Source: Flavobacterium sp. 90
GTDB lineage: Bacteria > Bacteroidota > Bacteroidia > Flavobacteriales > Flavobacteriaceae
Length of the DNA stretch: 64,000 nucleotides
Assembly (NCBI RefSeq): GCF_004339525.1
Contig: NZ_SMGE01000001.1
Location: 2,480,001 to 2,544,000 of the forward strand
Reading direction: 5' to 3'
Both the position numbers and the translations under genes were made by a program. Positions 27,435 to 61,913 of this stretch are shown piece by piece; the first letter of the stretch is position 1, and every line of letters begins with the position of its first letter. The notes beneath the pieces were generated by a model. That model did not search any database, was not told the DNA's origin, and saw only the letters and a program-made list of their open reading frames with translations.

Positions 27435-30400
27435 CTATTGAAATATTATTTTTTCGGTTACTGTAAAGTCATTTTCTAAAGTAACTTTTAGCAATAAAAC
27501 CTGAGTGCTTGATTGAAGGTTTTGTATTTGTAGTTCAGTAGCGCCAATTTTATTCTTATTATAAAGAAGTTTTCCGGTGATATCATAAATAGCAACTTCT
27601 TTAATGTTTTCTTTAGTAGAAGTTACTTTAATCACTTTCTCTTTTACAGAAACTAAAAGATCGTTTTCAGTGTTTTCAAAATCTCCTGTTCCAAGAGTTT
27701 TCTTGGTATAAGCAATTGTAAAACGGTCTGTAAAAGTTCCAATCGCAGTTGTAAAAGTATAGTTACCTGCTTTTAAGTCAGTAACTTTTCCAGTTGTTTT
27801 ATCTTCCAGATATACTGCCTGATTATTGAAAAATCCGTCAGCATGATCGATTGCAATTATGAAATCACCCGCAACAGTAGTTTTATATCCTAACGGAATT
27901 CTATCTGTATCTGCAAATGGTAAAGCACGTCCCTGAATAATCAATTTATCTGCTTGATTGATACTGTAGAAATCTACAAAACTATTACCATTATTTGTAG
28001 CAGCATCATAATTAACATCCCAGTCATTTGTTGCGCCTTCGATATAACCAACCAAAACTTGTTTGAAAGCTCCCTGATTACTGGTAAGATTTAACCAAAT
28101 ACGATTTTTCTCGAGCTCATTTACTTTTGTAGTTTTATAAAATTCATTATTGCTTCCGCTTATACGCATATCATTTGTGAACTTAACAACACCCGGAGCA
28201 GAAGCCAACATAAAGAAAGACTGACAGGCAGCTATTTTGCCTGATGGAGGAGGTGTTGCGCCTGTTCCCGTTGAGCCGGATAAATTAAAGACGGCATAAT
28301 CGTTACTGGTGTAATCATATGAACCACCTGCTGAAGGTAAACTACTTGGAGGGGAATTATGCGTCCAAAAGTATAGTGATCCAACATCTACAGATGGTGA
28401 AGCATCATGGTTAATTTTAATAAATTTTTCTGCATCTATTGCTGATGGATACGGGTTTCCTATTAAACTCCATTTTGCACCATATATCGCAACTGAATAA
28501 TTACCGTTATTAGGAACTCCTGTAAAGACTGCCGGATAAACTGTAGGAGCAGTAATCGAAAAAGTTTGCGGAGCTCTTACTGCATAACCTACAGCAGGTT
28601 CCATATCTTTCAATCCGTTTAAATGAATGTTCCATGATGATGATGTCGAATTATAGCTCTGATACTTGTCTAATAAAGTACCCGGAGATAAGTCCTTAAG
28701 CTTATAAGGTTGGGCAGTATTTGTTATTGGCGTTGACCAATAAGTAAAATCATATCGACGAACAGGTTGTGTATTACGTTGATAGATAATATTGCCGGTG
28801 TTTGCATTGGTAACTCCATTAGTTTGTAATAAACTTGAATTGTTCTGAAATGTTAGAGATCCTCCAGAGACAACATTAAGTGCATTTTTAATGTTTAAAG
28901 TACGTCCTGCAGGAACAATTATATTAACCCCTGAATTAATGGTACAAGAACAAGCTTCTATGTCTGCTGTTATTGTAAAAGGTCCGGCAAATATGGCACT
29001 TTTGGTCGCATTTGGATCACCAGTTGACCATGTGGTTCCGTCCCAGGTTGTAGAAGATTGATTTGTAATGGTAACTTCAGCGCTTGACGGAGACATGAAG
29101 CAGGAATTATAAACTTTATAAGTATATTTTCCAGCCGGAATTCCTGTAAGCGTAATTGATGTTCCTGAACTCGTAGTTTTCACTGCTCCCGGACTTCTTT
29201 CAACAGTCCATGTTCCGCTAGCGGGTAAATCACTTAATGTAATAGTTCCCAAAGTGGTACATGTGGTATTTGTAAAACTAGTGATCGTTGGCGGTGTTAA
29301 CAAAAATGTCGTTGTAGGTGTATTATTAAATTCAACGGTGTTTAATGATGGATCGACTCCGGTAACTTTTCCTGTGTTTATAATTTTACCTGCAGTAACA
29401 TCTGCTGCGGTAATGGTATAAACTCCCGTTAGCGTTGTTTTTGCGCCAACAGCCAATGATGCAATAGGATTTCCTGATATTGCTATTCCGGTTAAGGCAT
29501 CGGTAACTTTAATATCAGTGATAGGAACTTCGCCGGTGTTGGTTACCTCGAAGGTGTAGTTTATTTTGTCTCCAGCTTTCCCGCAAGATGTTAATGTACC
29601 TTTTGTAACCAAAGTTAGCTCGGCTATTTTTAGTGAATTGGTATTAAAAGCGATAAAAGCACAATCTGAACTTCCGGAAAAAGTAACTACAAAACGATCT
29701 ACACTTGCCGCATTTGCTGCTGTAATACCAAATTCGCTGGTTTCAATTGCCAGCATTCGAATGTCTCTGGTTGCAGCTGGTGTAAAAGCTCTGGCAGCAT
29801 TATCAGCGCGGAATAAATCCAGGCTGTAAGTACCAATAGCTGACATCGAACCAAAATTTGTAGATAAGGCATGACCGACAATATTATTGTCTTTGTCTAC
29901 AAATTTGAAAGTATCTGGGTTACCTCCCGGCTCTGCTACTTGTGTTACAATTAAATCAGGAATATTATCGCCAAGACCACTGAGGTTTAGATTATTTGTT
30001 CCCACTTTAAATTCTGCTGAACCTGCTTTTATATTGGCAATACCCGTTCCAAGAGTTAAACCGTTAATACCATCTGTAAGTCGGGAAGCAAGTTCGGCGC
30101 CTGTTGACGTCGCTCCTGCAAGTGGCGGAATTAATTTTGTGATTGCGTCATCTCCGTCTATTTTTGAACCTTGTAAAAAATACATGGAATTTGCGTCCAG
30201 ACCTAGGGTTTGAATTTTTAGTGCTCTAAATTTTTGTGGGCTATACGTTATAGGTTTTCCATTTAGGATATTGTCATTTACTCCTGTTGAATATGTTTTG
30301 CTATTCCATTCAAAAGCAAGTAAATTGTTTTCGGTGTCAGGTCTGTTTCCGGCAGCAGTTACGCCATTTGATTTCCAGTAGCCATTCCAGTCTGTATATA

Positions 30401-30509: not shown

Positions 30510-30627
30510 GGTGGGCTTGGTTTTTTTGTAGAGTTGGTTATAGATTTAGAGCTGTCGTTTTAGGAGATCTTTAAATGATAGATTTTTTTTAGTGTTTATA
30601 ATTCAGTTTTAGGGGAGTTATTACATA

Positions 30628-30660
30628 CAAAAATCCGGCAGCTTTCGCTGTCGGATTTTA
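30628..30660 (-). terminator. Terminator of giant gene 2
   Basis: AAAATCCGGCAGC pairs with GCTGTCGGATTTT (one wobble) around loop TTTC. The minus-strand T-run follows. It lies just past the gene 2 stop. Confidence 0.8.
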
Positions 30661-30677
30661 CATATAAAATTGTAGGT

Positions 30678-33600
30678 TTAATTAAATATGATTTTTTTTG
30701 TTACAACATAGTCATTGTCTAATGTTATTTTTACCAATAAAACCTGTGTGGCTGATTGAAGGTTTTGTACTTGTAATTCAGCTGCGTCAACTTTCTTTTT
30801 ATTGTAAAGAATTTTTCCTGATATATCATAAATAGCAACTTCTTTAATGTTTTCTTTAGTAGAAGTTACTTTGATTGTTTTCTCTTTTACAGAAACCAAA
30901 AGATCGTTTTCAGTAGTTTCAAAATCTCCTGTTCCAAGAGTTTTCTTCGTATATGCAATTGTAAAACGGTCTGTAAAAGTTCCTATTGCAGTTGTAAAAG
31001 TATAATTACCAGCTTTTAGATCTATAACTTTTCCTGTCGTTTTATCTTCTAAATATATTGCCTGATTATCGAATAATCCGTCAGCATGATCGATTGCTAT
31101 GGTAAAATCACCTGCAACAGTAGTTTTATACCCAAACGGAATTCTGTCAGTATCTGTAAATGGTAAAGCACGCCCTTGAATACTCAATTTATCTGCTTGA
31201 TTAATACTATAAAAATCTATAAAAGAATTCCCATTCATAGTACTAGCATCATAATTAACATCCCAGTCATTTGTTGCACCTTCGATATAACCAACCAAAG
31301 CTTGTTTGAAAGCTCCCTGATTACTCGTAAGATTTAACCAAATACGATTTTTCTCAAGCTCATTTGTTTTTGTTGTTTTATAAAACTCATTATTGCTTCC
31401 GCTTATACGCATATCATTTGTAAACTTAACAACACCAGGACCAGAAGCCTTCATAAAGAAAGACTGACAAGAAGCTATTTTTCCAGATGGTGCAGGTTCG
31501 TAAGTTCCGTCAGGTCGTTTTGCACCTGTAGAAGTTGATCCTGATAAGTTTAAAACAGCATAATCATTACTGGTGTAATCATAAGATCCTCCTGCTGAAG
31601 GCTTATCACTTGGAGGCGTATTGTGTGTCCAAAAGTACAATGATCCAACATCTACAGATGGTGTAGCATTGTGGTTTATAGTAATAAATTTCTGTGCATC
31701 TATCGCTGATGGATAAGGATTTCCTATTAAACTATAATTTGTAGCATAAAGTTGAATTGAATAATCACCATTATTAGGAATACCATTAAAAATTGCCTGA
31801 TAAGTCACTGGATTTGTGATTGAAAAATTCTGTGGCGCTCTAATTGCGTATCCCACACCAGGTTTCATTTCATCTGTTCCGTTTAAATTGATCTTCCATG
31901 CATTTGCTGAAGAATCATAGCTCTGATATTTGTCTAATAATGTACCTGGTGACAAGTCATGCATTGTATAAGCCGGAATTTTGGTTAGTGGTGCTGACCA
32001 ATACGTAAAATCATAACGTTTCACCAAATCTGTATTTCTTAGTACCTGAAAAGAATCTGCTGCACCTTGATAAGAATTTGTCGTGGTACTAGTTTGTAGT
32101 AATGAAGCTCCATCTTCAAGCAGAAGTTTTCCACCCGTTCCAACAGTTATATTTTGGTTAACCGTCAATGTTTTGTTAGAAGGTACGGTAAGAACCACAT
32201 TTGGACTAATTGTACAAGAACAAACTTCGATATCGTTATTTAAAGTTGTATTTGTGGTTATTTTAATAGATGTTGAGTTTGGGGGTATAGTTCCCGTGCC
32301 ATTATTATATTCAGTTGGTGTATCAATAAAATTAAGAGCAATATTAGCATCACCAGCATCTTCTCTAAGGCGTACTTCTACTGTAGAGTTTTCGTTTAGG
32401 AAATATGTGGTAGTTCCATTTACTTGTACATTAGCATTGCTGTAACCATTTTGAGTAAAAATGTCAACTCCATTAATGAAAATTTTTGCCACATCATCAC
32501 AATTTGGCAGCACAAGTTGATAGCGACCGCATGGAAAGCCCTTACGTTTATAAGTAATAGTAAAATTGTCGATAGGCATTGGTGCTCCTTGCCAATTAGA
32601 GTAATATGAAGGTGATTTTGTTTTATTCCAAAAAAGTTGTGAGTCAAAGTTTAGATTTGGATCAACATACATTCCTGCGAAACTCGAAGCTTGTAAATTG
32701 ATATCTGGTAAATTGAAACCGTAAACGTTCCATTTATTAATTCCAAACTCAAGTGAGGCGTTAGTTGCTATAACCGCGCCATGTGAAAAGGATACTCTTG
32801 CGATTCCTCCTTTTTCATAATATTCAAGTATAAAGCTATGTGATGCTGCAGTTAACGGAACCTGAGCAGTATAAACGTTATAGCCGTGATCACCCCATGA
32901 ACCTGTTGGCGAAAGAGTAATTAAGTTTCCGTCAATATACAATCGAACACCGTCATCTCCTCCTATTGTAAAATTATAAGTGTCAGCTGTGGTAGTGGTT
33001 TGCATTAAATAGCGCACCATAAAATTTTCAGCCGGTACCGGACCACAAAAGTTATCAGCAGCAACACTTTGGTCACCTGTTATTGTTCCGTATTGTACAT
33101 CTCTTTCAAAATTTGGATTTTCGTAAACCGTTCCAACATATGTAGTTGGTGCTGGTGTTCCTGTATAGGTGTAAACATATCCGTTCCATTGATTTATTCC
33201 AGGTGTTGGAGTAGCAGCACATGGTGGTGGTGTAACGGTTACATAAACAATTGCCGACGAATAAGCACTTCCGTTATAAAGAGTATATACAAATGATGTT
33301 TCACCAGAAAAACCTGTAGTTGGGGTAAAAGTTACATCAGTAAGACCATTAGCTACAGCGACACCATTTAGAGATTGTGTTGATATAGTCATAGTTTGTA
33401 ATGGAATTGATCCTATGATATCATTATTCAAAACCGGAATGTGTACTGCTTGATTCGCTGGTGTAGTTGCCGTATCATAGTTAGCAGTTAAGGTATTGGT
33501 ACTTGAAACAACGCCTGAAATTGTTGGACCTAGTTCTCCTCCGTTATCATGTACAAGATAGTAATCTGAGTAGTATTGATCATTTTCATAAACGTAGATT

Positions 33601-34907
33601 CGGATATAAAATACTTGATTTTGTGTCGCTACAACGCCAGGAGGGAAATTAGCTGTTACAGTTGTCTGTGTATTTAATACAGCAGTTGTTTCAGCTATTA
33701 AACTCGTTCCGTTTCCTGGAAAAGCTGGGTCTAAAGAGTATCGAACCTGATATTTTTTTGGACCTGCATTATTTGAAGATGTTGAATTGTAAGTAAATTT
33801 AAATTGCGTAAGGTCTATTTTATACCCCGTTTTAGGGCTAACACTCATTTGAATATATTTTGAGTAATCTAATGAAGTTGGAGATCCATTTACTCTAAAG
33901 CCACTATTTACTGCACCAAAAGACATGGTGTTGTTTGTTGTGATATCTGAGGCGGTAATATTAGAATCTGAAACCGCAGCAGTAGGTTTTGGAGTAGATC
34001 CTGATCCATTCCAGATCACAAGGCTTGGAGTAATGTCATCTACATTTACAAATACAGTTCCTGTGGATGATTTAGTTGAATTGGAAATGGTGTATTTAAA
34101 AGAAGTTTGTCCCGTAAAATTGTTTCCAGGATTAAAAGTTAAAGATTTATCCGGGTTTACGGTTACGGTACCTTGCCCTGTTGCAGGTTGATTTGCTATT
34201 ACAATGTTGTTAATAGAACTGGTTCCAGCTGTATCATTATTTAAAACGCCTATTGTGATTGCCGTATTTTTTTTGGTAGTTACATTGTCATCATTAGCAT
34301 TTATATCACTTGCATCATATGTTAAAACTGTACCGGTGATTGTAGGTGTCGTATTTCCTGTTTGAGTGATAGTATTTGAATTGGCTAAAAATATTGGAGC
34401 ATTTAGATCTCCGTATACCATTAACTTATAACCATAAATTCTTATAGTTAGTGTTTCTCCTTGCGTCAAAGTTAAATTGGCAAGGCTTAATGATCTGTTT
34501 ATTTTTCCTGTTGTAGTTGCTTCATCCAGTAATAGATAGCTTGTTGTAAAGTTGTCTTTGGAATATCGTACCTGATATCTTTGTACATCAACATGAGATT
34601 CACCATTGTAAGTAAAATTGAAAGCTCCTAATTTAAGTTTGTATCCTGTTTTTGCACTTACCGCTACTTGAAAATACTTGTTGTCGTCTTTAACGAAAGT
34701 AGTAGGCCAACCTGTTCCTTTAAAACCTTCGTATGCTAAAATTTGTAAATTTGAGTTTGGACCTGCTGTAATTTGGGCTGCTGAAACTGCCGCTGTAGAA
34801 GCTACGATTGTTCCGTTAGCGTCGCTTGGCCCATTCCATTTTACAAGATCAGTTTGTGCAATTCCAAAAAAAGGTAACAATAAAAATAAAAGTAGAGTTT
34901 TCTTCAT
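30678..34907 (-). CDS. Giant T9SS-secreted protein 2 (cadherin-like Ig and PA14-like domains)
   Basis: The 1409-residue protein has signal peptide MKKTLLLFLLLPFFGIAQ. Two copies of a roughly 170-residue beta domain (about 19-190 and 297-470, marked by AKTGYKL...FNFTYN and KTGYKIDL...FKFTYN) are each followed by a cadherin-like Ig repeat (GVLNNDTAGTSS; PVLNNDIIGS). A PA14-like domain near residue 648 has GGDDGVRLYIDG, and a second related unit has NCDDVAKIFINGVD. The CSC region (VCSCTISPNVVLTVPSN) precedes the shared block, residues 963-1409, ending KKIIFN. PA14 domains commonly bind carbohydrate, so a glycan-binding surface role is plausible but inferred. It has its own promoter box and terminator. 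Confidence 0.85.
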   Translation of the reverse strand: MKKTLLLFLLLPFFGIAQTDLVKWNGPSDANGTIVASTAAVSAAQITAGPNSNLQILAYEGFKGTGWPTTFVKDDNKYFQVAVSAKTGYKLKLGAFNFTYNGESHVDVQRYQVRYSKDNFTTSYLLLDEATTTGKINRSLSLANLTLTQGETLTIRIYGYKLMVYGDLNAPIFLANSNTITQTGNTTPTITGTVLTYDASDINANDDNVTTKKNTAITIGVLNNDTAGTSSINNIVIANQPATGQGTVTVNPDKSLTFNPGNNFTGQTSFKYTISNSTKSSTGTVFVNVDDITPSLVIWNGSGSTPKPTAAVSDSNITASDITTNNTMSFGAVNSGFRVNGSPTSLDYSKYIQMSVSPKTGYKIDLTQFKFTYNSTSSNNAGPKKYQVRYSLDPAFPGNGTSLIAETTAVLNTQTTVTANFPPGVVATQNQVFYIRIYVYENDQYYSDYYLVHDNGGELGPTISGVVSSTNTLTANYDTATTPANQAVHIPVLNNDIIGSIPLQTMTISTQSLNGVAVANGLTDVTFTPTTGFSGETSFVYTLYNGSAYSSAIVYVTVTPPPCAATPTPGINQWNGYVYTYTGTPAPTTYVGTVYENPNFERDVQYGTITGDQSVAADNFCGPVPAENFMVRYLMQTTTTADTYNFTIGGDDGVRLYIDGNLITLSPTGSWGDHGYNVYTAQVPLTAASHSFILEYYEKGGIARVSFSHGAVIATNASLEFGINKWNVYGFNLPDINLQASSFAGMYVDPNLNFDSQLFWNKTKSPSYYSNWQGAPMPIDNFTITYKRKGFPCGRYQLVLPNCDDVAKIFINGVDIFTQNGYSNANVQVNGTTTYFLNENSTVEVRLREDAGDANIALNFIDTPTEYNNGTGTIPPNSTSIKITTNTTLNNDIEVCSCTISPNVVLTVPSNKTLTVNQNITVGTGGKLLLEDGASLLQTSTTTNSYQGAADSFQVLRNTDLVKRYDFTYWSAPLTKIPAYTMHDLSPGTLLDKYQSYDSSANAWKINLNGTDEMKPGVGYAIRAPQNFSITNPVTYQAIFNGIPNNGDYSIQLYATNYSLIGNPYPSAIDAQKFITINHNATPSVDVGSLYFWTHNTPPSDKPSAGGSYDYTSNDYAVLNLSGSTSTGAKRPDGTYEPAPSGKIASCQSFFMKASGPGVVKFTNDMRISGSNNEFYKTTKTNELEKNRIWLNLTSNQGAFKQALVGYIEGATNDWDVNYDASTMNGNSFIDFYSINQADKLSIQGRALPFTDTDRIPFGYKTTVAGDFTIAIDHADGLFDNQAIYLEDKTTGKVIDLKAGNYTFTTAIGTFTDRFTIAYTKKTLGTGDFETTENDLLVSVKEKTIKVTSTKENIKEVAIYDISGKILYNKKKVDAAELQVQNLQSATQVLLVKITLDNDYVVTKKIIFN

Positions 34908-34960
34908 GTTAAATGTTTTCTATCAGATTGTTATGTTGGCATAGGATTTTTTTGCCCACG

Positions 34961-34968
34961 CAAAGATA
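34961..34968 (-). promoter_or_regulatory. Candidate -7 box TATCTTTG for giant gene 2
   Basis: On the minus strand TATCTTTG (34968-34961) matches TAnnTTTG and equals the atpD box. No TTG lies at the right spacing, hinting at activator dependence. The phased repeats at 35019-35050 are where such an activator could bind. Confidence 0.5.
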
Positions 34969-35018
34969 GATACATCTACGTTTTGGATATCGGAACGGTT
35001 TTTAGAAGAACGATATAG

Positions 35019-35052
35019 TCGATGAAATGTTAAAATAATCGATGAACTACAT
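35019..35052. promoter_or_regulatory. Phased direct repeats TCGATGAA upstream of giant gene 2
   Basis: TCGATGAA at 35019-35026 and 35039-35046 (20-nt period), the second extending to TCGATGAACTACATC. The same GATGAACTACAT word occurs upstream of giant gene 5. Two direct half-sites about two helical turns apart are typical of response-regulator (for example LytTR) binding. Confidence 0.5.
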
Positions 35053-35359: not shown

Positions 35360-35833
35360 TTATGAGTTTTTTTCCAATTCTTTTACTTTGTCGTAAACTA
35401 AAAAACTTTCGAAACCACGTCTTAGCATATAATCGCAGAATTTTTTTCTCTTTTTCAGTACGTCTTTTTCACGTAAATTTTCCCAACATCTTTCTGATAA
35501 TTGCTGAAAAGTAGTGTCATACTCTTCAGGAGATATTTCTTTTAATGCTATTTTGATATTTGTCGAAGAAATTTGCCTTGCTTTTAGTTCATTTGTGATT
35601 CTGATAGTTCCCCATTGTTTGATTCTGTGTTTGCCTCTGGCAAAACTGCAGGCAAAACGAGTCTCGTTCAAAAAGTTACTTTCGATTAGCTGAACTATGA
35701 TTTGTTCTGATTCATCATTGGTCATTTTTAAGCTGTATAATTTCGTAACAACCTCTGCATGACAGCGCTCCTGATAGGCACAAAAGTGTTCGAGCTTAAG
35801 TAAGGCTTCCTTGGGAGTGCAGAATGGTTTCAT
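35360..35833 (-). CDS. recX: RecX family regulatory protein
   Basis: RecX binds RecA filaments and modulates recombination. The 157-residue protein has ALLKLEHFCAYQERCHAEV and the signature FARGKHRIKQWGTIRITNELKARQIS. A third helical repeat follows (REKDVLKKRKKFCDYMLRRGFE). Length and three-repeat layout fit the family. It stands alone between the minus-strand giant genes 1-2 and the plus-strand giant genes 3-6. No recA is in the window. Its position inside a recombination-prone repeat locus may be coincidental. Confidence 0.92.
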   Translation of the reverse strand: MKPFCTPKEALLKLEHFCAYQERCHAEVVTKLYSLKMTNDESEQIIVQLIESNFLNETRFACSFARGKHRIKQWGTIRITNELKARQISSTNIKIALKEISPEEYDTTFQQLSERCWENLREKDVLKKRKKFCDYMLRRGFESFLVYDKVKELEKNS

Positions 35834-51600: not shown

Positions 51601-54014
51601 CAGAAAACACTGTTACAGGGGCTTCTTCATCTCCAATATTATGCATAAATACCTTGATGCCTAATATTACGCATACTACTACTGGCGCAACAGGAATTGG
51701 AGCACCACTAAATTTGCCAGCGGGAGTTTCTGCCAGTTGGGCATCTAATACAATTACAATAAGTGGTATGCCAACACAATCTGGAACTTTTAGTTATACT
51801 ATTCCATTAACGGGAGGTTGTAGTATAGTGAATGCCACGGGAACAATTGTTGTAAAATTAGATACAGTTGGAGCAGCGTCAACATCTCCAATAATTTGTT
51901 CTCACACCGTAATGCCAAATATCACACATACCACTACAGGTGCAACAGGAATTGGTGCGCCGGTAAATTTACCAACGGGAGTTTCTGCAAGTTGGGCATC
52001 CAATACAATTACAATAAGTGGTACTCCAACACAGTCAGGGACTTTTAATTATAGTATTCCTTTAACAGGAGGTTGTGGACCTGTTAGTGCTGTGGGAACT
52101 ATTGTGGTAAAACCTTTGCCGTCTACTCCAATATCCGGAACAATTACACAACCTACCTGCAGTAATACAACAGGAAGTATTGTATTAAATGGTTTGCTTT
52201 CTACATCAACATGGATTATTACTCAAAGCGGAACTGTTTTGAAAACTTATTCGGCTTCTGGAACCACTTATACAATTTCTAATTTATTACCCGGAAATTA
52301 TAATTTTACGATCGAAGATGGGGTCAATTGCGCTTCGTTACCAACAATAAGTTTAGAGATTAAGGCGCCAGTTACAAATATTTGGGACGGAACATCTTGG
52401 TCAAAAGGTGGCATTCCCATAAATACGGATGGTGTTGAGTTTTCTGCAGATTACCAATCAACAGGAGATTTAAATGTCTGTTCATGTAAGATTGATTCCG
52501 GAAAAAGTGTAACAATAAATTCGGGACATACTTTAACAATAGAAAAAGAATTAAATGTTGATTCAGGAGCAGGAACCAATTTGATATTTCAAAATGATGC
52601 CAGTCTGGTACAAACAACAAATGCAGTCAATACAGGAAACATTATATATCATAGAGATACAGAACCGGTTCGCCGATATGATTTTACCTATTGGTCAACA
52701 CCAATAACAAATCCTGCACAACCTTATACGCTTCATGATTTGTCTCCAAATACATTGTTAGACAAATATGAAAGCTACAATTCTTTAGCGGGAGCATGGG
52801 ATATTAGCTTAAATGGAACGCGAGTAATGGTTCCGGCAGTAGGTTATGTGGTTAGAGCACCACAAAATTTTTCTATTACTGCTCCTGCAATTTATCCTGC
52901 AATTTTTACAGGTGTTCCTAATAATGGAGACTATTCAGTTCCGCTTTTTGCAACAAAATGGAGTTTAATAGGAAATCCTTATCCATCAGCAATAGATGCA
53001 GAGGAATTTATTAACATAAATCATTTCGCATCACCGTCTGTAGATGTTGGAGCCTTATACTTTTGGACACATAATACTCCTCCAAGCAGCACAGCTTCAT
53101 CTGGTGGTTCTTACGATTATACCAGTAATGATTATGCTGTTTTTAGTTTGTCCGGAGGAATTTCAACAGGAGCCAGATTGCCTGACGGAACTTATGGACC
53201 TGCACCATCAGGAAAAATAGCTGCTTGTCAGTCTTTCTTTATGCTGGCTTCAGGTCCGGACGCTGTTAAGTTTACAAATGGCATGCGAGTGGGCGGAAAC
53301 AATGGAGAATTTTTTAAAACAACAAGACCAAGAGTGTTAGAAAAAAATCGATTATGGTTAAATTTAACTAATACCCAAGGGGCTTTCAAACAACTTTTAA
53401 TAAGTTATATCGAAGGAGCATCAAATAGTTGGGATGTTAATTATGATGCAACTACAATGGAGAGTAATAGTTTTATAGATTTTTATAGTATTAATGAAAG
53501 TGAAAAACTAACGATTCAAGGTCGCGCATTACCATTTGTAAATACTGATAAGGTTCCGTTAGGATATAAAACGACCATTGCGGGTAATTTTAATATTGGA
53601 ATTGATCATGCCGATGGGCTTTTTAATAATCAGGAAGTATATCTGGAAGATAAAATAACAGGAAAGGTTACAGACTTAAAAGCCGGTAATTATACATTTA
53701 CAACTGCAATAGGAACTTTTACAGATCGCTTTACTATTAACTATATTGACAAAACCCTTGGAACAGGAGACTTTGAAAACCCTGAGAATGATGTTTTGGT
53801 TTCGGTAAAAGATAAAATTATAAAAGTAACATCTACTAAAGAAGAACTTAGAGAAGTCGTTTTATTTGATGTTTCGGGAAAAATGCTTTATCATAAAAAC
53901 AAGATAACGAATAAGGAATTAGTGATACCAAATTTGCAATCAGGAAATCAGGTTTTATTAGTTAGGATTGTTTTAGACAATGGATATTCAAGCTCCAGAA
54001 AGGTTATATTTTAA
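48609..54014 (+). CDS. Giant T9SS-secreted protein 5 (glycine-rich and fibronectin-III-like repeats)
   Basis: The 1801-residue protein has a signal peptide ending FFYAQ (residue 20). A glycine-rich domain (about 25-235; AWGAGGAGGSS, SGGGGGAFASA, PPGGGGSGGRS) comes first. Four fibronectin-III-like repeats follow (about 346-740; ITANWQAVSGASYYELDVST, NTYYYRVRATN); units 3 and 4 share a long identical stretch. PKD/Ig-like units come next, then two copies of an 86-residue putative Ig unit (about 999-1170; SPILCINTLMPNITHTTTGA). After the CSC region (VCSCKIDSGKSVTINSG) comes the shared block, residues 1355-1801, ending SSRKVIF. The start aligns with gene 6. Likely a surface fibre or binding protein. 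Confidence 0.85.
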   Translation: MKRSLLIPLLICFPVFFYAQTTTTFSAAGSQTFVSPAGITSINVQAWGAGGAGGSSTAPPGFSGARAGSGGGGGAFASASLTITSGALLPVIVGAGGKGVSGANGNFGGFSAITGFSLKADGGKGGLVNTGNQPAGGLGGASGASVGTTTISGFPGLAGESGFVDDTGSVISSGAGGNAANGGGTGGAAITGAFVTNAGNPGNPPGGGGSGGRSSFFQSARVGGDGGDGKVIISYNCPTYSLSGAVASAVNVCSGSSSEITLTGNLPVGLYKVSYEIQGVAQTPSAMNVTTTGTGSFIASGFTAVGSKFVKITALTSGSSTVASENCTSPITINNLATVVVNSSGTAPVAVAGSGATCTQITANWQAVSGASYYELDVSTDNTFATFVTGYSARNVGNVLTFNITGLVNDTYYYRVRAYNGTCVSANSNIITYATTVAPATPTSNAGSGKTCSQITANWTAVSGATSYFLDVSTQNGANFNTNMLVGYNNLNVGNVVTKDVTGLAVNTNYYYRVRATNSCATSSSSAIINYSTSTTVAGIPATPTANAGSGQTCSQFTANWALAARATSYIIDVSTQASGTAFTNNILPAYNGLNVGNVLSFDVTGLNANTTYYYRVRATNTCGTSSNSGIIMYGTTTGGSGTPTVPTVNTPTGQTCTQITINWSSATRATSYIIDVSTQASGTAFTNNILPAYNGLNVGNVLTKNITGLSANTIYYYRIRATNNCGTSANSTIANTSTTPVPAVPAILPTSTTICQTDGVSLNVVSPNAAYTYVWSTGEMGSSIYATAAGSYTVKAVNSGGCSSADSPAATVIVQGLPTAIAGGSVTICSNQPVTVTGASATNGTIKWTFSGGAGTLTGDTTLTPIYTPVQGGAARTVVLTMTVTSTNACMPQIATAAYTINIQAAPTASISGTQSTCSNGSVTLAAGEANASNGTILWTHNGAGSISAGATTLTPTYTAAAADAGKQITLTMTVTASPSCSTPYIVTDIYPVIVNAENTVTGASSSPILCINTLMPNITHTTTGATGIGAPLNLPAGVSASWASNTITISGMPTQSGTFSYTIPLTGGCSIVNATGTIVVKLDTVGAASTSPIICSHTVMPNITHTTTGATGIGAPVNLPTGVSASWASNTITISGTPTQSGTFNYSIPLTGGCGPVSAVGTIVVKPLPSTPISGTITQPTCSNTTGSIVLNGLLSTSTWIITQSGTVLKTYSASGTTYTISNLLPGNYNFTIEDGVNCASLPTISLEIKAPVTNIWDGTSWSKGGIPINTDGVEFSADYQSTGDLNVCSCKIDSGKSVTINSGHTLTIEKELNVDSGAGTNLIFQNDASLVQTTNAVNTGNIIYHRDTEPVRRYDFTYWSTPITNPAQPYTLHDLSPNTLLDKYESYNSLAGAWDISLNGTRVMVPAVGYVVRAPQNFSITAPAIYPAIFTGVPNNGDYSVPLFATKWSLIGNPYPSAIDAEEFININHFASPSVDVGALYFWTHNTPPSSTASSGGSYDYTSNDYAVFSLSGGISTGARLPDGTYGPAPSGKIAACQSFFMLASGPDAVKFTNGMRVGGNNGEFFKTTRPRVLEKNRLWLNLTNTQGAFKQLLISYIEGASNSWDVNYDATTMESNSFIDFYSINESEKLTIQGRALPFVNTDKVPLGYKTTIAGNFNIGIDHADGLFNNQEVYLEDKITGKVTDLKAGNYTFTTAIGTFTDRFTINYIDKTLGTGDFENPENDVLVSVKDKIIKVTSTKEELREVVLFDVSGKMLYHKNKITNKELVIPNLQSGNQVLLVRIVLDNGYSSSRKVIF
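49645..50835 (+). repeat. Four fibronectin-III-like coding repeats in giant gene 5
   Basis: Units of about 92-102 codons begin near 49645, 49921, 50220 and 50530. Units 3 and 4 are nearly identical over TSYIIDVSTQASGTAFTNNI and beyond, so this pair is the most recent duplication. Confidence 0.75.
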
Positions 54015-54038
54015 CGATAGTATTTTAAAAAAGAAGGA

Positions 54039-54070
54039 ATCCATTTCGTTTTGCGGAGTGGATTTTTTTT
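54039..54070 (+). terminator. Terminator of giant gene 5
   Basis: AATCCATTTCG/CGGAGTGGATT (two G-U pairs) with loop TTTTG and an eight-base T-run, followed by GTGCAATA. Confidence 0.85.
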
Positions 54071-54500
54071 GTGCAATATTTTTTTCTCAGTACTTTTTTA
54101 CTATTAACACTCTTTTTCTAAAAGGGATGTTATTGATTTCAATATGTTAAAAAACAATTCTTTACGTTAAAATATTTTTCTGTTGTAAATAAAATCGTAC
54201 CTTGTTGGAGGTTATAATCGACGAACTTACATAAAAGCCTGTTGTAATACAATTTTACTCACTACCTCTCAAAAACTAAGATTATTTTTTTAGTTTTTTA
54301 TTCGCCTAAATACTGATTGTTAAATTTAAATACCATTAAATAAACAAATAAGTACTTAACGTTTATTTCTACATCTTTTCCTAGGTTTTAGGACGTTTTT
54401 TAAGCGTTCCTGTTCCGCTTATATGGTATTTAAAGTTTTTTAAGAGAATTCATGCTTTGATTGTGGATCTGTTTTTTTTTAATTATCTAAAATGCCTCTT
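54071..54500. other. 430-bp AT-rich leader region before giant gene 6
   Basis: No gene seen. It contains a degraded GACGAACTTACAT site (54220-54232), the leader block shared with gene 5 (54310-54355), and a final segment ATCT...TTTTTTAATTATCTAAAA directly before the ATG that aligns with the end of the gene 5 leader. Confidence 0.5.
54310..54355 (+). promoter_or_regulatory. Leader block shared by giant genes 5 and 6 (copy before gene 6)
   Basis: TACTGATTGTTAAATTTAAA, then TTAAATAAACAAATAAGTAC. Homologous to 48292-48340, supporting duplication of gene 5 and gene 6 including their upstream regions. Confidence 0.6.
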
Positions 54501-57500
54501 ATGAAAAGAATCTTACTTAACTATTTGATTTTTATTCCTGTTCTAAAGGAACATTTGTTTCTAAATGAGCAATATAAACCAGCATTTTTTAATAGAAAGT
54601 TCAAACTAGTTTTAGTTTTATCTTTTGTATGCACTTCACTGTGGGCTCAGCCACCTCACATATTTACAGCTGATGGCACAGTAGTTATTCCGGCAGGAAT
54701 TACCTCTATGGATATTAAAGCATGGGGTGCCGGTGGTGCTGGTGGAGGTGCAGGTAGTTCTCCTTTACTTAGTGGAAGAAGTGGTGCAGGCGGAGGAGGA
54801 GGAGCATATGCAAATGGTCTCATAACAGTTAATCCATTATCAGGAGTGCCTTTAAATATTAAAGTTGCCGTAGCGGTTACTGGAACAACTTCAAGTGGAA
54901 CAGCAGGAGGCAGTTCAACAATACAAGGTTTTGAAGCAGTTATTTTAGCAGTTGGAGGAGGAGGAGGTACAGCCAATACAGCAGGCGGTACACCCAGTGG
55001 CGGAGCAGGTGGATTAGGCAGTGCTTCGATTGGTTCCATTTCAACAGCTTCTGGGATAAATGGAGGAAACGGAAGTGCTGCCTTATTAAGTTTGGGGCTT
55101 TCATCTGGGGCTGGTGGTAATGCAGGTGGTACCGGAGGAGGTGCCGGAGGTGCAGCTCTTTCAACTTTATTATTAGGTAATGGACCAGGAAATGCAGGTA
55201 GTCCACCCGGTGGTGGCGGGAGTGGTGGATTGCAGACCGTAGGAAATCCTTCTCAAGTAGGAGGTTCAGGTGCTCACGGACAAGTTACAGTTACTTATAC
55301 ATGTCCAACTTATAATATTACGGGAATATCAGCAACGAATGTTTGTATTACATCACCAACATCTTCAGTAACAGTTACATCGAGTGCTGCATCTTTGCCT
55401 ATTGGTATTTATACGGTTACTTATAATCGAGGTACACCCGCAGCTACTGGATTGACAGCAGCAATGACAGTAAATACAGCAGGTACTGGAACTTTTACAG
55501 CAGTAGGCCTAACAACTGCAGGTACAAGTTCGATTGCTGTTACAGGATTAACATCAGGTGTTTGTGTTTCTCCCATTTCAGGAATAACTACTAATGTAAC
55601 AATTTCTCCGGACACAGTAGCGGGATCCGCTGGTGGAGGAACAACAATTTGTAGTGGTTCAACAAGTGCTGCTTTATTATTAACCAGTAGTGTAGGCTCA
55701 GTTCTTAGATGGGAATATTCAATAGCTCCGTTTTCAACTTGGACTCCCACATCTGTTGCAAATACAACAACAACATATACTTCGGACGCACTTACACAAA
55801 CTACACAATTTAGAGCTGTAGTGCAAAGTGGTACTTGCTCGACATTAAATTCTACAGCAACTACCGTAACTGTTAACCCGTCTCCACAAGGAAGTTTGTC
55901 AGCCAATGGCCCATTTTGCGCGACTGGCGCTGGACAATTAACTTTTACTGCAACATCCGGAACCGGACCGTTTACGGTGGTTTATAATGATGGCGTTACA
56001 AATCGCACTGCAAATAGTGTAGTAAGCGGAACAGCTTTTGCAACGGCTGTCACTCCGGTTTTAAGTACAACAACCTATACTTTAGTTTCCGTTACCGATG
56101 CCAATACTTGTATAAGAAGTTCTGGTTTCACCGGAAGTTCAGCGACTATCACCGTTAATCCATTACCACAAGGAACCTTATCGGCTAATGGTCCTTTTTG
56201 TGCGACTGGCGCGGGACAATTAACTTTTACAGCAACATCAGGAACAGGACCATTTACTGTCGTTTATAATGATGGAATTGCCAATCGCAGCGTTAGTGTT
56301 GCAAGCGGTACAGCTTTTGCAACGGTTGTCACTCCGGTTTTAAGCACAACAACCTATACTTTAGTTTCCGTTACCGATGCCAATACTTGTGTACGAAGTT
56401 CAGGTTTCACTGGAGGTTCAGCCACGATAACCGTTACCCCATTACCACAAGGAAGTTTGTCAGCCAATGGTCCTTTTTGTGCGACTGGCGCGGGACAATT
56501 AACGTTTACCGCAACATCCGGAACAGGACCATTTACAGTGGTTTATAATGATGGAGTGGCAAATCGTAGTGTAAGTGTTGCAAGCGGAACAGCTTTTGCA
56601 ACGGCTGTCACTCCAGTTTTAAGTACAACAACTTATACTTTAGTTTCAGTTACCGATGCCAATACTTGTATAAGAAGTTCTGGTTTCACCGGAAGTTCAG
56701 CGACTATAACTGTTAGACCTTTACCACAAGGAACCTTATCGGCTAATGGTCCTTTTTGCGCGACTGGCGCTGGACAATTAACTTTTACCGCAACATCCGG
56801 AACAGGACCATTTACGGTGGTTTATAATGATGGAGTGGCAAATCGCAGTGTAAGCGTCGCAAGCGGAACATCTTTTGCAACGGCGGTCACTCCGGTTTTA
56901 AGCACAACAACCTATACTTTAGTTTCAGTTACCGATGCCAATACTTGTGTACGAAGTTCTGGTTTCACCGGAGGTTCAGCCACGATAACCGTTACCCCAT
57001 TACCACAAGGTAGCTTATCAGCCAATGGTCCTTTTTGTGCGACTGGCGCGGGACAATTAACGTTTACCGCAACATCCGGAACAGGACCATTTACTGTGGT
57101 TTATAATGATGGAGTTGCCAATCGCAGTGTAAGTGTGGCAAGCGGTACAGCTTTTGCAACTTTCCAAACTCCGGTTTTAAGTACAACAACTTATACTTTA
57201 GTTTCCGTTACCGATGCCAATACTTGTATAAGAAGTTCTGGTTTCACCGGAAGTTCAGCAACGATAACCGTTACCCCATTACCACAAGGAACCTTGTCAG
57301 CCAATGGTCCATTTTGTGCGACTGGAGCGGGACAATTAACGTTTACTGCAACATCCGGAACAGGACCATTTACTGTGGTTTATAATGATGGAGTTGCAAA
57401 TCGTAGTGTAAGTGTGGCAAGCGGAACCGCTTTTGCAACTTTCCAAACACCGGTTTTAAGTACAACAACTTATACTTTAGTTTCCGTTACCGATGCCAAT

Positions 57501-60500
57501 ACTTGTGTACGAAGTTCAGGTTTCACCGGAGGTTCAGCCACGATAACCGTTACCCCATTACCACAAGGAACCTTGTCAGCCAATGGTCCTTTTTGCGCAA
57601 CTGGCGCCGGACAATTAACGTTTACAGCAACATCCGGAACAGGACCATTTACTGTGGTTTATAATGATGGAGTTGCAAATCGTAGTGTAAGTGTTGCAAG
57701 CGGTACAGCTTTTGCAACTTTCCAAACTCCGGTTTTAAGTACAACAACCTATACTTTAGTTTCGGTTACTGATGCCAATACTTGTATAAGAAGTTCAGGT
57801 TTCACCGGAGGTTCAGTAACGATTACCGTTACCCCATTACCACAAGGAAGTTTGTCTGCCAATGGTCCTTTTTGTGCAACTGGCGCCGGACAATTAACTT
57901 TTACAGCAACATCAGGAACAGGACCATTTACTGTGGTTTATAATGATGGAGTTGCAAATCGTAGTGTAAGTGTTGCAAGCGGAACCGCTTTTGCAACGGC
58001 TGTCACTCCGGTTTTAAGTACAACAACTTATACTTTAGTTTCCGTGACCGATGCCAATACCTGTATAAGAAGTTCTGGTTTCACCGGAGGTTCAGCGACT
58101 ATCACCGTTACCCCATTACCACAAGGAACCTTGTCAGCCAATGGTCCTTTTTGCGCAACTGGCGCTGGACAATTGACGTTTACAGCAACATCCGGAACAG
58201 GACCATTTACAGTGGTTTATAATGATGGAGTTGCCAATCGCAGCGTTAGTGTTGCAAGCGGAACAGCTTTTGCAACGGCTGTGACTCCGGTTTTAAGCAC
58301 AACAACCTATACTTTAGTTTCCGTGACCGATGCCAATACCTGTATAAGAAGTTCTGGTTTCACCGGAGGTTCAGCGACTATCACCGTTACCCCATTACCA
58401 CAAGGAAGTTTGTCAGCCAATGGTCCATTTTGTGCAACTGGCGCCGGACAATTAACTTTTACCTCAACATCCGGAACAGGACCATTTACTGTGGTTTATA
58501 ATGATGGAGTGGCAAATCGCAGTGTAAGTGTGGCAAGCGGAACAGCTTTTGCAACTTTCCAAACACCAGTTTTAAGTACAACAACCTATACTTTAGTTTC
58601 GGTTACCGATGCAAATACTTGTATAAGAAGTTCCGGTTTCACCGGAGGTTCAGCGACTATCACCGTTAATCCATTACCACAAGGAAGTTTGTCAGCTAAT
58701 GGTCCATTTTGCGCGACTGGCGCTGGACAATTAACTTTTACAGCAACATCCGGAACAGGACCATTTACGGTAGTCTATAATGATGGAGTTGCCAATCGCA
58801 GTGTAAGTGTTGCAAGCGGAACAGCTTTTGCAACAGCTGTCACTCCGGTTTTAAGTACAACAACCTATACTTTAGTTTCCGTTACCGATGCTAATACTTG
58901 CGTGAGAAGTTCAGGTTTTACCGGAGGTTCAGCGACTATCACCGTTACCCCATTACCACAAGGAACCTTATCGGCTAATGGTCCATTTTGTGCAACTGGC
59001 GCTGGACAATTAACGTTTACCGCAACATCCGGAACAGGACCATTTACTGTGGTTTATAATGATGGAGTTGCCAATCGAAGTGTAAGTGTTGCAAGCGGAA
59101 CAGCTTTTGCAACGGTTGTCACTCCTGTTTTAAGTACAACAACCTATACTTTAGTTTCGGTTACTGATGCCAATACTTGTGTACGAAGTTCAGGTTTCAC
59201 CGGAGGTTCAGCCACGATAACCGTTACCCCATTACCACAAGGAACCTTGTCGGCTAATGGTCCATTTTGTGCGACTGGAGGGGGACAATTAACGTTTACA
59301 GCAACATCCGGAACAGGACCGTTTACGGTAGTTTATAATGATGGAGTTGCCAATCGCAGTGTAAGTGTTGCAAGCGGAACAGCTTTTGCAACGGCGGTCA
59401 CTCCGGTTTTAAGTACAACAACTTATACTTTAGTTTCCGTGACCGATGCCAATACCTGTATAAGAAGTTCAGGTTTTACGGGAGGTTCAGCGACTATAAC
59501 CGTTAATCCATTACCGGTTCCGGTTTTTTCTGTTCAGCCTGGAGCAACTGTTTGTGTTGATGATAGCGTGACCTACACCACTTTGGCTGGACAAACAAAT
59601 TATCTTTGGACGGTTCCCGGAGTTGCAGGTACAGATTATAATATTACCTCAGGTGGAATATCAACTACCAATAATACAGTCACATTACAATGGAAAATAA
59701 CAGGAAATAAAACAGTTATGGTAAGTTATTCTTCAAATGGATGTGCTGCAGTTGTGAGTGCAAGTAACTCAACAAATGTAACAAAAACACAACCCGGAAT
59801 TGTAAACGGAGGAGCGCATGTTTGTAGCGGAGATCCAAGTCCTTTATTAACTTTAAGTGGTTATAACGGTACTATTGTCAGATGGGAATACGCCGAATCT
59901 TTGCCATATGTATGGCAATCTATAAGTCATACAGGTGTTGCTTATCAGCCAGGAATATTATTAACGAGTACTAGTTATCGAGCTGTGATAAAAAACGGAA
60001 CCTGTGCAGAAGATTTTTCAATAGAAACAAGAATTGATATTGATTCAAGACCATCTACTCCGGTACCAGGAACTATAGTACCACCAACATGTGTTAATCC
60101 TACAGGAAGTGTAGTTTTAAATGGCTTAATCACTGGTCCTAACGTGATCATTAATCAAACCGGCACATCTTTGCAAACTTATACTGATTTTGGCGCTGGT
60201 TATACCGTTACTAATTTATCTCCGGGTACTTATTATTTTACGATTCAGGATGGGGCAAATTGTCCTTCGTTACCAACAACAGGTATTGTAATTGTACCGC
60301 CTGTTACAAATATTTGGAATGGTTCAGTTTGGTCTAATGGAAGTCCACCTATAGAAACTGACGGCGTTGAGTTTGCAGGAAATTATCAAACAACAGGAAA
60401 CTTAAGTGCCTGCTCATGTATTGTGCACCCCGGAGTTAATGTTACTGTAAAATCCAATCATACATTAACCATTGATAATTTTTTAAATAATAATGGAGGA

Positions 60501-61913
60501 ACTTTGATTTTTGAAAACAATGCCAGCCTTCTTCAGGTAAACAACTCAGTTAACACAGGAAATATTTTTTATAAACGAGATACTCCCCCGGTTCGTCGTT
60601 ATGATTTTACCTATTGGTCATCTCCGGTTACACGTACTCCGGCTTTTACGTTACATGATTTGTCTCCAAATACTTTGATTGATAAGTATGAAAGATATGA
60701 TCCTTTAACAGGATGGATAATTATTAATAATGGAACCGCACCAATGTTAGCAGGAGTTGGTTATACCGTAAGAGCTCCGCAAAATTATGATATTAATAAT
60801 CCGGTGGTTTATAATGCATCATTTGAAGGAGTTCCAAATAATGGTCCATACAATATAAGTTTGGGAGCAGCGGAGAAATGGAGCTTATTAGGAAATCCAT
60901 ATCCTTCTGCAATTTATGCAGATCAATTTATCGTCGATAATACGGCAAATGTTTATGGTACTTTATATTTTTGGACTCACAATTCAGCTCCCAATAGTAC
61001 AACATACCAATATAATTCTGAAGATTATGCAACTTATAATTTATCAGGCAGTGTAGTTATAGGCAATATGACAGGAGATGGAGCAACAACACCTGGAAAT
61101 CAAAATCCTCCATTGGGATATATTGCAGCAGGGCAATCATTCTTTGTGAAATCAAAAACAGGACAAAACGCTGTTTTTACAAACTCAATGCGTATTTCAG
61201 GGAATAACACGCAATTTTTTAAAGATGCAAATTCAAAGAATGAAAAGAACCGTGTCTGGCTTAATCTAACAAATACCCAAGGAGCATTCAAGCAATTGTT
61301 AGTTGGTTATATTGAAGGAGCAACAGATGGTTGGGATACTAATTATGATGGAATCACAGCAGATGCAAACAAATATTTAGATTTTTACAGTATAAATGGA
61401 GATCTAAAACTTGTGATTCAGGGACGCGCATTACCGTTTAAAAATTCTGATATTGTTCCCTTAGGATATAGATCCGCAATTGCAGGTGATTTTACCATTG
61501 CAATAGATCATGCCGATGGTCAATTAAGTACTCAACCTATTTTTCTGGAAGATAAAACTACTGGTGTTATGCACGATTTGAGAGCAAGCAACTATACTTT
61601 TACAACTACAACAGGCATTTTTGCAGACCGTTTTGTGCTGCGATACTCGAAAACTTTAGGAGTTGAAGACTTTGATAAAAACGAAGATAATGTTATTGCT
61701 TTTGTAAAAAATAAAAACATAAAAGTATCCTCACTCAAAGACGCTATTAATGAAGTTGTTATTTATGATGTTTCCGGAAAAATGCTTTATGATAAAAAGA
61801 AAATCGGAAATACTGAATTACAAATAACAAATTTGCAATCCGGAAATCAGGTTTTATTTGTAAAAGTTATTTTAGAAAACGGTTATGTATCGACCAAGAA
61901 AGTTGTCTTTTAA
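54501..61913 (+). CDS. Giant T9SS-secreted protein 6 with thirteen 93-residue repeats
   Basis: The protein has 2470 residues from the ATG at 54501, chosen over 54492 because leader and MKR start align with gene 5. The N-terminus is unusual: MKRILLNYLIFIPV, a polar linker (KEHLFLNEQYKPAFFNRK), then a second hydrophobic stretch (LVLVLSFVCTSLWAQ). A glycine-rich domain follows (about 65-260), then Ig-like units. Thirteen repeats occupy residues 464-1673 (PQGSLSANGPFCATGAGQLT, TFTATSGTGPFTVVYNDG, YTLVSVTDANTC). After two more Ig-like units and the CSC region (ACSCIVHPGVNVTVKSN), the shared block is residues 2032-2470, ending STKKVVF. Probably a long repetitive surface protein; function unknown. 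Confidence 0.85.
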   Translation: MKRILLNYLIFIPVLKEHLFLNEQYKPAFFNRKFKLVLVLSFVCTSLWAQPPHIFTADGTVVIPAGITSMDIKAWGAGGAGGGAGSSPLLSGRSGAGGGGGAYANGLITVNPLSGVPLNIKVAVAVTGTTSSGTAGGSSTIQGFEAVILAVGGGGGTANTAGGTPSGGAGGLGSASIGSISTASGINGGNGSAALLSLGLSSGAGGNAGGTGGGAGGAALSTLLLGNGPGNAGSPPGGGGSGGLQTVGNPSQVGGSGAHGQVTVTYTCPTYNITGISATNVCITSPTSSVTVTSSAASLPIGIYTVTYNRGTPAATGLTAAMTVNTAGTGTFTAVGLTTAGTSSIAVTGLTSGVCVSPISGITTNVTISPDTVAGSAGGGTTICSGSTSAALLLTSSVGSVLRWEYSIAPFSTWTPTSVANTTTTYTSDALTQTTQFRAVVQSGTCSTLNSTATTVTVNPSPQGSLSANGPFCATGAGQLTFTATSGTGPFTVVYNDGVTNRTANSVVSGTAFATAVTPVLSTTTYTLVSVTDANTCIRSSGFTGSSATITVNPLPQGTLSANGPFCATGAGQLTFTATSGTGPFTVVYNDGIANRSVSVASGTAFATVVTPVLSTTTYTLVSVTDANTCVRSSGFTGGSATITVTPLPQGSLSANGPFCATGAGQLTFTATSGTGPFTVVYNDGVANRSVSVASGTAFATAVTPVLSTTTYTLVSVTDANTCIRSSGFTGSSATITVRPLPQGTLSANGPFCATGAGQLTFTATSGTGPFTVVYNDGVANRSVSVASGTSFATAVTPVLSTTTYTLVSVTDANTCVRSSGFTGGSATITVTPLPQGSLSANGPFCATGAGQLTFTATSGTGPFTVVYNDGVANRSVSVASGTAFATFQTPVLSTTTYTLVSVTDANTCIRSSGFTGSSATITVTPLPQGTLSANGPFCATGAGQLTFTATSGTGPFTVVYNDGVANRSVSVASGTAFATFQTPVLSTTTYTLVSVTDANTCVRSSGFTGGSATITVTPLPQGTLSANGPFCATGAGQLTFTATSGTGPFTVVYNDGVANRSVSVASGTAFATFQTPVLSTTTYTLVSVTDANTCIRSSGFTGGSVTITVTPLPQGSLSANGPFCATGAGQLTFTATSGTGPFTVVYNDGVANRSVSVASGTAFATAVTPVLSTTTYTLVSVTDANTCIRSSGFTGGSATITVTPLPQGTLSANGPFCATGAGQLTFTATSGTGPFTVVYNDGVANRSVSVASGTAFATAVTPVLSTTTYTLVSVTDANTCIRSSGFTGGSATITVTPLPQGSLSANGPFCATGAGQLTFTSTSGTGPFTVVYNDGVANRSVSVASGTAFATFQTPVLSTTTYTLVSVTDANTCIRSSGFTGGSATITVNPLPQGSLSANGPFCATGAGQLTFTATSGTGPFTVVYNDGVANRSVSVASGTAFATAVTPVLSTTTYTLVSVTDANTCVRSSGFTGGSATITVTPLPQGTLSANGPFCATGAGQLTFTATSGTGPFTVVYNDGVANRSVSVASGTAFATVVTPVLSTTTYTLVSVTDANTCVRSSGFTGGSATITVTPLPQGTLSANGPFCATGGGQLTFTATSGTGPFTVVYNDGVANRSVSVASGTAFATAVTPVLSTTTYTLVSVTDANTCIRSSGFTGGSATITVNPLPVPVFSVQPGATVCVDDSVTYTTLAGQTNYLWTVPGVAGTDYNITSGGISTTNNTVTLQWKITGNKTVMVSYSSNGCAAVVSASNSTNVTKTQPGIVNGGAHVCSGDPSPLLTLSGYNGTIVRWEYAESLPYVWQSISHTGVAYQPGILLTSTSYRAVIKNGTCAEDFSIETRIDIDSRPSTPVPGTIVPPTCVNPTGSVVLNGLITGPNVIINQTGTSLQTYTDFGAGYTVTNLSPGTYYFTIQDGANCPSLPTTGIVIVPPVTNIWNGSVWSNGSPPIETDGVEFAGNYQTTGNLSACSCIVHPGVNVTVKSNHTLTIDNFLNNNGGTLIFENNASLLQVNNSVNTGNIFYKRDTPPVRRYDFTYWSSPVTRTPAFTLHDLSPNTLIDKYERYDPLTGWIIINNGTAPMLAGVGYTVRAPQNYDINNPVVYNASFEGVPNNGPYNISLGAAEKWSLLGNPYPSAIYADQFIVDNTANVYGTLYFWTHNSAPNSTTYQYNSEDYATYNLSGSVVIGNMTGDGATTPGNQNPPLGYIAAGQSFFVKSKTGQNAVFTNSMRISGNNTQFFKDANSKNEKNRVWLNLTNTQGAFKQLLVGYIEGATDGWDTNYDGITADANKYLDFYSINGDLKLVIQGRALPFKNSDIVPLGYRSAIAGDFTIAIDHADGQLSTQPIFLEDKTTGVMHDLRASNYTFTTTTGIFADRFVLRYSKTLGVEDFDKNEDNVIAFVKNKNIKVSSLKDAINEVVIYDVSGKMLYDKKKIGNTELQITNLQSGNQVLFVKVILENGYVSTKKVVF
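55890..59519 (+). repeat. Tandem array of thirteen 279-bp repeats inside giant gene 6
   Basis: The first unit (55890-56171) is 282 bp with a divergent centre (TNRTANSVVSG). Twelve 279-bp units follow to 59519. Units vary at a few fixed spots: G(S/T)L start, AVTP/VVTP/FQTP, C(I/V)RSS, (S/G)SATITV and final T/N/R. The combinations are shuffled among units. Confidence 0.95.

Follow-up and report, generated by a model that had tools for sequence, protein, structure and literature searches.

A candidate rem locus of six RemA/RemZ-family genes in Flavobacterium, whose common C-terminal core appears to be exchanged between paralogs

The locus and its six genes

The window, the whole stretch of 64,000 nucleotides of Flavobacterium sp. 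90 DNA that was analysed, carries six large genes between positions 27435 and 61913, designated here g1 to g6. The first-pass annotation had described six proteins of 1024-2571 residues which end in a common C-terminal block with a T9SS sorting domain, and all six reading frames were verified in the ORF list of the window: g1 (27435-30509, 1024 aa) and g2 (30678-34907, 1409 aa) on the minus strand, and g3 (36119-43834, 2571 aa), g4 (44016-47873, 1285 aa, with a TTG start), g5 (48609-54014, 1801 aa) and g6 (54492-61913, 2473 aa) on the plus strand. The left border of the locus is formed by bioA (24626-25897) and a beta-ketoacyl synthase (KAS) family gene (26151-27320), both on the plus strand, and the right border by a cupin-like gene (62052-62963) and bioB (63001-63861, the frame continuing to the end of the window), both on the minus strand. 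With arrowheads denoting the strand, the order is KAS> g1< g2< recX< g3> g4> g5> g6>. The recX-like gene (35360-35833, minus strand), a putative recombination regulator, lies inside a segment found in either of two orientations, depending on the species. Rfam gave no match in the window.

The motifs RYDFTYWS, GNPYPSAI, LYFWTHN and GRALPF are present in all six proteins, while the fifth motif that had been credited to each of them, IDHADG, occurs in five, g4 carrying IDHKDG instead. Counted from RYDFTYWS, 436-446 residues remain up to the C-terminus, in keeping with the 436-447 residues originally given for the block; the block itself, however, begins approximately 100 residues earlier, at a W-G..W motif, and totals 535-558 aa. 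Its three parts are the W-G module (about 100 aa), the core (361-371 aa) and the T9SS tail (87-88 aa), so that most of it does lie beyond the sorting tail, as had been claimed. The core and tail are located on the minus strand at 27702-28793 and 27438-27701 in g1 (whole block 27438-29057) and at 30945-32054 and 30681-30944 in g2, and on the plus strand at 42476-43567 and 43568-43831 in g3, 46527-47609 and 47610-47870 in g4, 52638-53750 and 53751-54011 in g5, and 60561-61649 and 61650-61910 in g6. As compared to the core of g3, identity is 92% for g1, 76% for g2, 49% for g4, 75% for g5 and 59% for g6. The core matched no model of either Pfam or NCBIfam in the scans of the window ORFs, and a search of the block against Pfam at E up to 5 returned nothing above cut-off. 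Across its own genome, a single contig of 6.65 Mb, matches of the core profile at E up to 0.01 were confined to g1 to g6. In F. johnsoniae two proteins, of 276 aa (L140:974-1804) and 278 aa (L141:1212-2048), have a signal-peptide-like start as judged by eye and, behind it, the C-terminal half of a core with the tail; as they hold half of the core, the core probably consists of two domains. A third F. johnsoniae site (G148:C1:3216269) was also hit, G148 being taken as F. johnsoniae because a 202-aa piece of RemZ matches it at 100% and a stretch of 18 RemA residues occurs in it unchanged.

In a PDB profile search the six-block profile matched residues 572-1113 of RemZ (E 1.4e-234) and 895-1435 of RemA (E 6.8e-223), and the block is on this alignment homologous, end to end, to the C-terminal ~540 aa of both F. 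johnsoniae proteins. The entries 4wa0, 7on7 and 3mw4 (E 0.004-0.3), retrieved by the same search, were taken as chance matches. RemZ (Fjoh_0803) is reported to be a homologue of RemA that was trapped in the SprA-PorV translocon with its CTD alone well resolved and the core not resolved (PMC10994853), and RemA is Fjoh_0808 (PMC5445135). Two aligned stretches of g6 jointly span RemZ 1-1113, the array of 13 repeats being situated between them, while residues 9-240 of g3 correspond to RemA 3-238 (226 bits). F. johnsoniae RemA contains the SUEL lectin domain PF02140 (35.9 bits), which is absent from RemZ and for which no match was listed in the family scans of g1 to g6; as RemZ is also without it, this domain does not define the family, and for the same lack of a listed SUEL domain g3 is not called RemA itself. 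By sequence, then, g1 to g6 are assigned to the RemA/RemZ gliding-adhesin family, in which the block is already known. The suggestion of an unknown carrier was consequently not upheld, the block being the C-terminal part of RemA and RemZ, and the description of most of it as an unexplained domain applies to the core, which no model of either database covered and which has no described fold or function, but not to the sequence as such.

A bioF-bioA-KAS-[rem genes, recX]-cupin-bioB neighbourhood recurs in many of the Flavobacterium stretches that were read. The order in F. johnsoniae is KAS> RemA< recX> g2-like> g1-like> g4-like> RemZ> cupin< bioB<, which is distinguished from that of the window by a single inversion, of the segment lying between the blocks of g1 and g3, and by having no g5-like gene; g1 is a relative of the F. 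johnsoniae cluster gene whose core matches that of RemA. These similarities in gene order and sequence indicate that g1 to g6 constitute the Flavobacterium rem locus, located at the same chromosomal position as F. johnsoniae RemA and RemZ. The family is known and the members at this locus are new; also new, as far as the open-licence PMC literature goes, are the homogenisation of the carrier, the pair of cores inverted across recX and the core as a part not described before. Matches to the core were found in 53 of 61 genomes of the genus (the present one included, with 1-14 matches each, fragments counted). Of 199 genomes sampled from the family 113 had a match, and of 296 sampled from the phylum 27, with 25 of these 27 belonging to the same order. 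Scoring of 7999 candidates yielded 1086 core-matching proteins, the named sources being mostly Flavobacterium among the 120 listed. Departures from an intact g4 arrangement were noted in Flavobacterium sp. JAS (G062, contig C55, 61227-62297 and upstream), where a g4-like frame contains one in-frame TAA, and on contig C10 of G015 (L035), where a g4-type frame stops ~24 residues past the core and the tail is shortened.

Ectodomains and the exchanged core

Family scans assigned the front of g1 to DUF7507, that of g2 to Big_9 with a PA14 match below threshold, that of g3, which has a RemA-like N-terminus, to PKD_6 in eight stretches, and that of g4 to DUF5122/delta-60, whereas g5 has FN3-type and glycine-rich domains and g6 a glycine-rich domain followed by 13 repeats of 279 nt. 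Tandem arrays were located on the plus strand in g3 (39172-41343, 270 nt x 8, 96% matches) and in g6 (55884-59515, 279 nt x 13, 90% matches). In the alignment with RemZ approximately a single g6 repeat unit has a counterpart, which suggests that the array of g6, a RemZ relative, is expanded and varies in length between the two. The distinct domains agree with the earlier statement that the front parts derive from different families, although this separation is incomplete, as a Gly_rich_2 domain starts both g5 and g6, and g3, g5 and g6 have some 70 residues in common just before the W-G module (53-54% identity); a similar stretch precedes the W-G module of g1 as read by eye.

A further proposal had been that a constant carrier receives interchangeable binding modules. 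In a best-relative comparison (94 of 98 cores used, 62 labelled by ectodomain) the core was closer to a same-genome paralog than to the best same-label gene elsewhere in 25 of 62 labelled genes. The same held for the W-G module in 7 of 62 genes and for the tail in 14 of 61. The W-G module follows the ectodomain in 55 of the 62 genes and the core does so in 37, which places the break at the core and identifies the core as the part exchanged. The frequency with which the core was closer to a paralog differed between genes, being 6/6 for both g1 and g3, 7/12 for g2, 2/4 for g5, 3/17 for g6 and 1/17 for g4. The one g4-type gene concerned (G008, contig C7, L043) has a core nearer to that of its g6-type neighbour (66%) than to that of its orthologue (49%). 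On a core tree of 82 of 91 rows, from which five rows from two duplicate genomes and four short cores were left out, the ectodomain labels need 31 changes against a minimum of 6 and a shuffled mean of 49.5, and both exchange and orthology are therefore visible in the core. Cores have thus often been exchanged between paralogs, by gene conversion or crossing over, with the ectodomains mostly keeping their orthology. This exchange is not universal, as the cores of g4 (16/17) and g6 (14/17) mostly follow their orthologues.

The converse process, a recent movement of ectodomains between fixed carriers, finds some support in a RemZ-type N-terminus that is also present on a coreless ORF elsewhere in the own genome, in the position of the g6-type gene, which is not the last before cupin/bioB in 7 of 27 stretches having one, and in the recX segment, which in either orientation re-pairs ectodomain and carrier end. 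The g6-type gene is, however, last before cupin/bioB in the other 20 of these stretches, and the W-G module stays with the ectodomain far more often than the core does, so that it is the core that is exchanged; we therefore regard module swapping as an unlikely principal explanation. What is retained of the original proposal is a common carrier with varied ectodomains, some movement of which is also visible, but it is mainly the carrier that has been exchanged.

The sorting tail and a proposed role of the core

The tails of all six proteins, and likewise those of RemZ and RemA, passed NF033708 (T9SS sorting signal type C). TIGR04183 matched two of the six at 19.7 and 20.2 bits, below its cut-off of 23, and RemZ at 19.2 bits, with no match listed for RemA, while PF18962 was listed for three of the six tails, again below cut-off (best E 0.008). 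The naming of this tail is in conflict, as it is 'type C' in NCBIfam, RemZ and RemA included, and 'Type A' in T9SS papers. The N-termini of g1 to g6 are hydrophobic as read by eye, and the own genome contains SprA (2802 bits) and four PorV-family genes over cut-off. The RemZ tail is reported to sit in SprA, touching PorV (PMC10994853). In the mechanism that we propose, g1 to g6 would be exported by Sec, after which the tail of 87-88 aa would be recognised by the SprA-PorV T9SS translocon, and the outward-facing ectodomains would attach to surfaces or polysaccharides, in the manner of RemA during gliding.

The NF033708 tail model was over cut-off at eight places in the own genome, and the two ORFs other than g1 to g6 are without a match to the core profile: L139, a GH18 chitinase, and L138 (1607-7084, at ~2.106-2.111 Mb), a reading frame of 1825 aa in which a RemZ-like front is combined with a type C tail. 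It has also been reported that SprB-HaloTag with a segment labelled as the RemA CTD was efficiently secreted and immobile, and that part of RemA-HaloTag moved (PMC12618676). From the presence of the tail without the core on L138 and L139, and from the SprB fusion that is secreted yet immobile, we infer that the core acts after secretion. It may serve a post-secretion step common to these adhesins, either holding them at the surface or coupling them to the moving track, and such a common step would favour a uniform core. The assignment of the core to surface coupling rather than to secretion is the weakest step of the proposal, and the conclusion drawn by the authors of PMC12618676, that the CTD alone dictates localisation, speaks against it. 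The 276- and 278-aa proteins of F. johnsoniae, in which half of a core is present, likewise count against the overall proposal.

Alternatively, the core may belong to the secretion signal itself, as an enlarged T9SS recognition region comparable to that of type B CTDs, for which more than 200 residues are reported to be needed (PMC10202324), and 153 of 155 full cores are succeeded by more than 40 aa, as expected of a tail, which would be compatible with such a combined signal. This appears improbable to us, given that L139 and L138 carry the same tail model without a core and that the SprB fusion with the segment labelled as the RemA CTD was efficiently secreted.

Probable recombination within the blocks and comparison with known systems

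The DNA identity of g1 and g3 is 37-58% in the upstream windows. It reaches 77% at the core boundary and 87-98% in most windows of the core, a single one having 73%, and is 79% in the tail. A similar profile is obtained for F. johnsoniae RemA and the g1-like gene, where 33-59% upstream is followed by 71% and then by 90-99% over core and tail, and the cores of RemA and this cluster mate are 98% identical at the amino acid level. Fourfold-degenerate sites in the core are 87-96% identical in six within-genome pairs of at least 95% identity and 78% identical in the g1/g3 pair of the window, as compared to 50 and 51% in two orthologue controls. At the same class of site the W-G modules of these pairs reach 31-65%, and the tails are homogenised in some pairs (97%) but not in others (27%, 44%). 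The near-identity of silent sites in the core, relative to the controls, indicates that core exchange has been recent and that the similarity is not due to selection only. The uniformity of the core within genomes, silent sites included, marks the core as one exchangeable unit. A practical consequence concerns F. johnsoniae RemA and its cluster mate, which share ~1.4 kb at 96% DNA identity, so that read mapping and mutant construction could be misled.

These data also bear on the possibility that the genes are ordinary paralogs, arisen by duplication, with a block kept similar by selection alone and no exchange between copies. Such a history would account for the g4 and g6 cores, which mostly follow orthology, and for the clustering of ectodomain labels on the core tree, where the number of changes falls below the shuffled mean. 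The silent-site test contradicts it for g1 and g3 and, in part, for g2 and g5, since the fourfold sites of the closest pairs are 78-96% identical against the 50-51% of the controls; moreover, all six labelled g1 cores and all six labelled g3 cores are closer to a paralog, and identity drops sharply at the core boundary. As an account of the locus as a whole we therefore consider ordinary paralogy very improbable.

The cores and tails of g1 and g3 form an inverted repeat of 1369 nt, with a left arm at 27436-28804 (minus strand) and a right arm at 42465-43833 (plus strand), the arms being 89% complementary and 13,660 nt apart. In 25 genomes recX has genes of the locus on either side, and the recX segment lies in one orientation in 17 of them and in the other in 8. 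In 14 of these 25 genomes the two cores most alike, at 85-100% identity, are inverted across recX, and wherever the top pair reached at least 85%, a cut picked after the first set of genomes had been seen, it was inverted (14/14). Within-genome pairs of ~85% or more number 20, of which 17 are inverted and three, spanning 85-95%, are direct, against 107 pairs of each kind in the 25 two-sided genomes; a direct pair of 93% was also present in the one-sided genome G030. The first set comprised 28 stretches (14 two-sided, 8 one-sided and 6 without recX), with G049 left out as its locus is on two contigs (g1/g3 cores 99% identical), and here 9 of the 14 two-sided genomes had an inverted top pair, against 7.5 expected (P 0.29; 10 of 14, P 0.14, with a tie broken otherwise). 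The second set of 20 genomes was reduced by two duplicates of shii and JAS, five without locus features and two one-sided to 11, of which 10 had an inverted top pair (expected 5.3, P 0.0036), the strand patterns, not the identities, of four of its genomes having been seen before this test. For both sets the figure is 19 of 25 (P 0.0087), and all of these P values treat the genomes as independent, though they are not.

Recombination within the blocks is the simplest cause of the two orientations. Recombination between inverted blocks would have turned the recX segment, and an inversion with its ends inside the blocks would re-pair ectodomain and carrier. In a tail-position test for inversion breakpoints the tails carried no position signal and did not locate the crossover point. 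No report of inversion or conversion at rem genes was found in the open-licence PMC literature. On the species tree, a single midpoint-rooted tree built from five neighbouring proteins, with gaps in the data and support of 41-50% on several of its branches, orientation requires at least 4 changes as compared to a shuffled mean of 6.9, a value as low being obtained in 1.3% of shuffles; this clustering suggests that inversion is rare and not a fast switch. A dedicated phase-variable inversion switch, to which the two orientations, inverted pairs of up to 100% amino acid identity and the 1369-nt inverted repeat might point, is accordingly dismissed as highly improbable and its fast form was set aside, as orientation states cluster by clade, the arms are long coding blocks and not the short inverted sites with a nearby recombinase of a shufflon, no recombinase family was listed for the 24 ORFs that were scanned of the 31 in the window (2 of the 24 being without any Pfam family), and inversion alone would probably not silence a gene because in this layout each gene carries its own upstream region along.

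Overall, we consider it highly probable that the window contains a rem locus of RemA/RemZ adhesins, predicted to be T9SS-displayed, with core exchange; block-mediated inversion and, as the weakest part, a post-secretion role of the core may complete this picture. A more far-reaching reading, that the rem locus is a self-homogenising array in which block inversion turns the ~14-kb recX segment and the core lets the adhesin stay on, or ride, the track, is put forward as possible but doubtful. If true, it would imply that a clade is able to retain a variety of ectodomains while the carrier stays uniform, and that the carrier core is the missing part, beyond the CTD alone, for a PorV-dependent adhesin on the gliding track.

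Of the known systems, RemZ (Fjoh_0803; PDB 8gl8, 8glm, 8gln) resembles g6 over its length and has the cupin and bioB neighbours and the tail model in common with it, but has approximately one repeat unit where g6 has 13 tandem repeats of 279 nt. RemA (Fjoh_0808; PDB 8gl6) matches the block over its C-terminal 540 aa and g3 over its first 240 aa; it differs in carrying the SUEL lectin domain, none being listed for g1 to g6, and its segment has the opposite orientation relative to bioA and bioB. ChiA-type proteins are recognised by the same NF033708 tail model, and the chitinase L139 of the own genome has GH18 domains and no core match. SprB is likewise a surface adhesin exported by the T9SS, but is described as having a type B CTD with its own carrier, SprF, in place of PorV (PMC12618676, PMC12635249). 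Recombination within surface-protein genes has likewise been described for P. gingivalis, of a T9SS-bearing genus; there, variants are reported to be exchanged between strains, (PMC5266723), whereas here it is the constant end that is homogenised within a genome.
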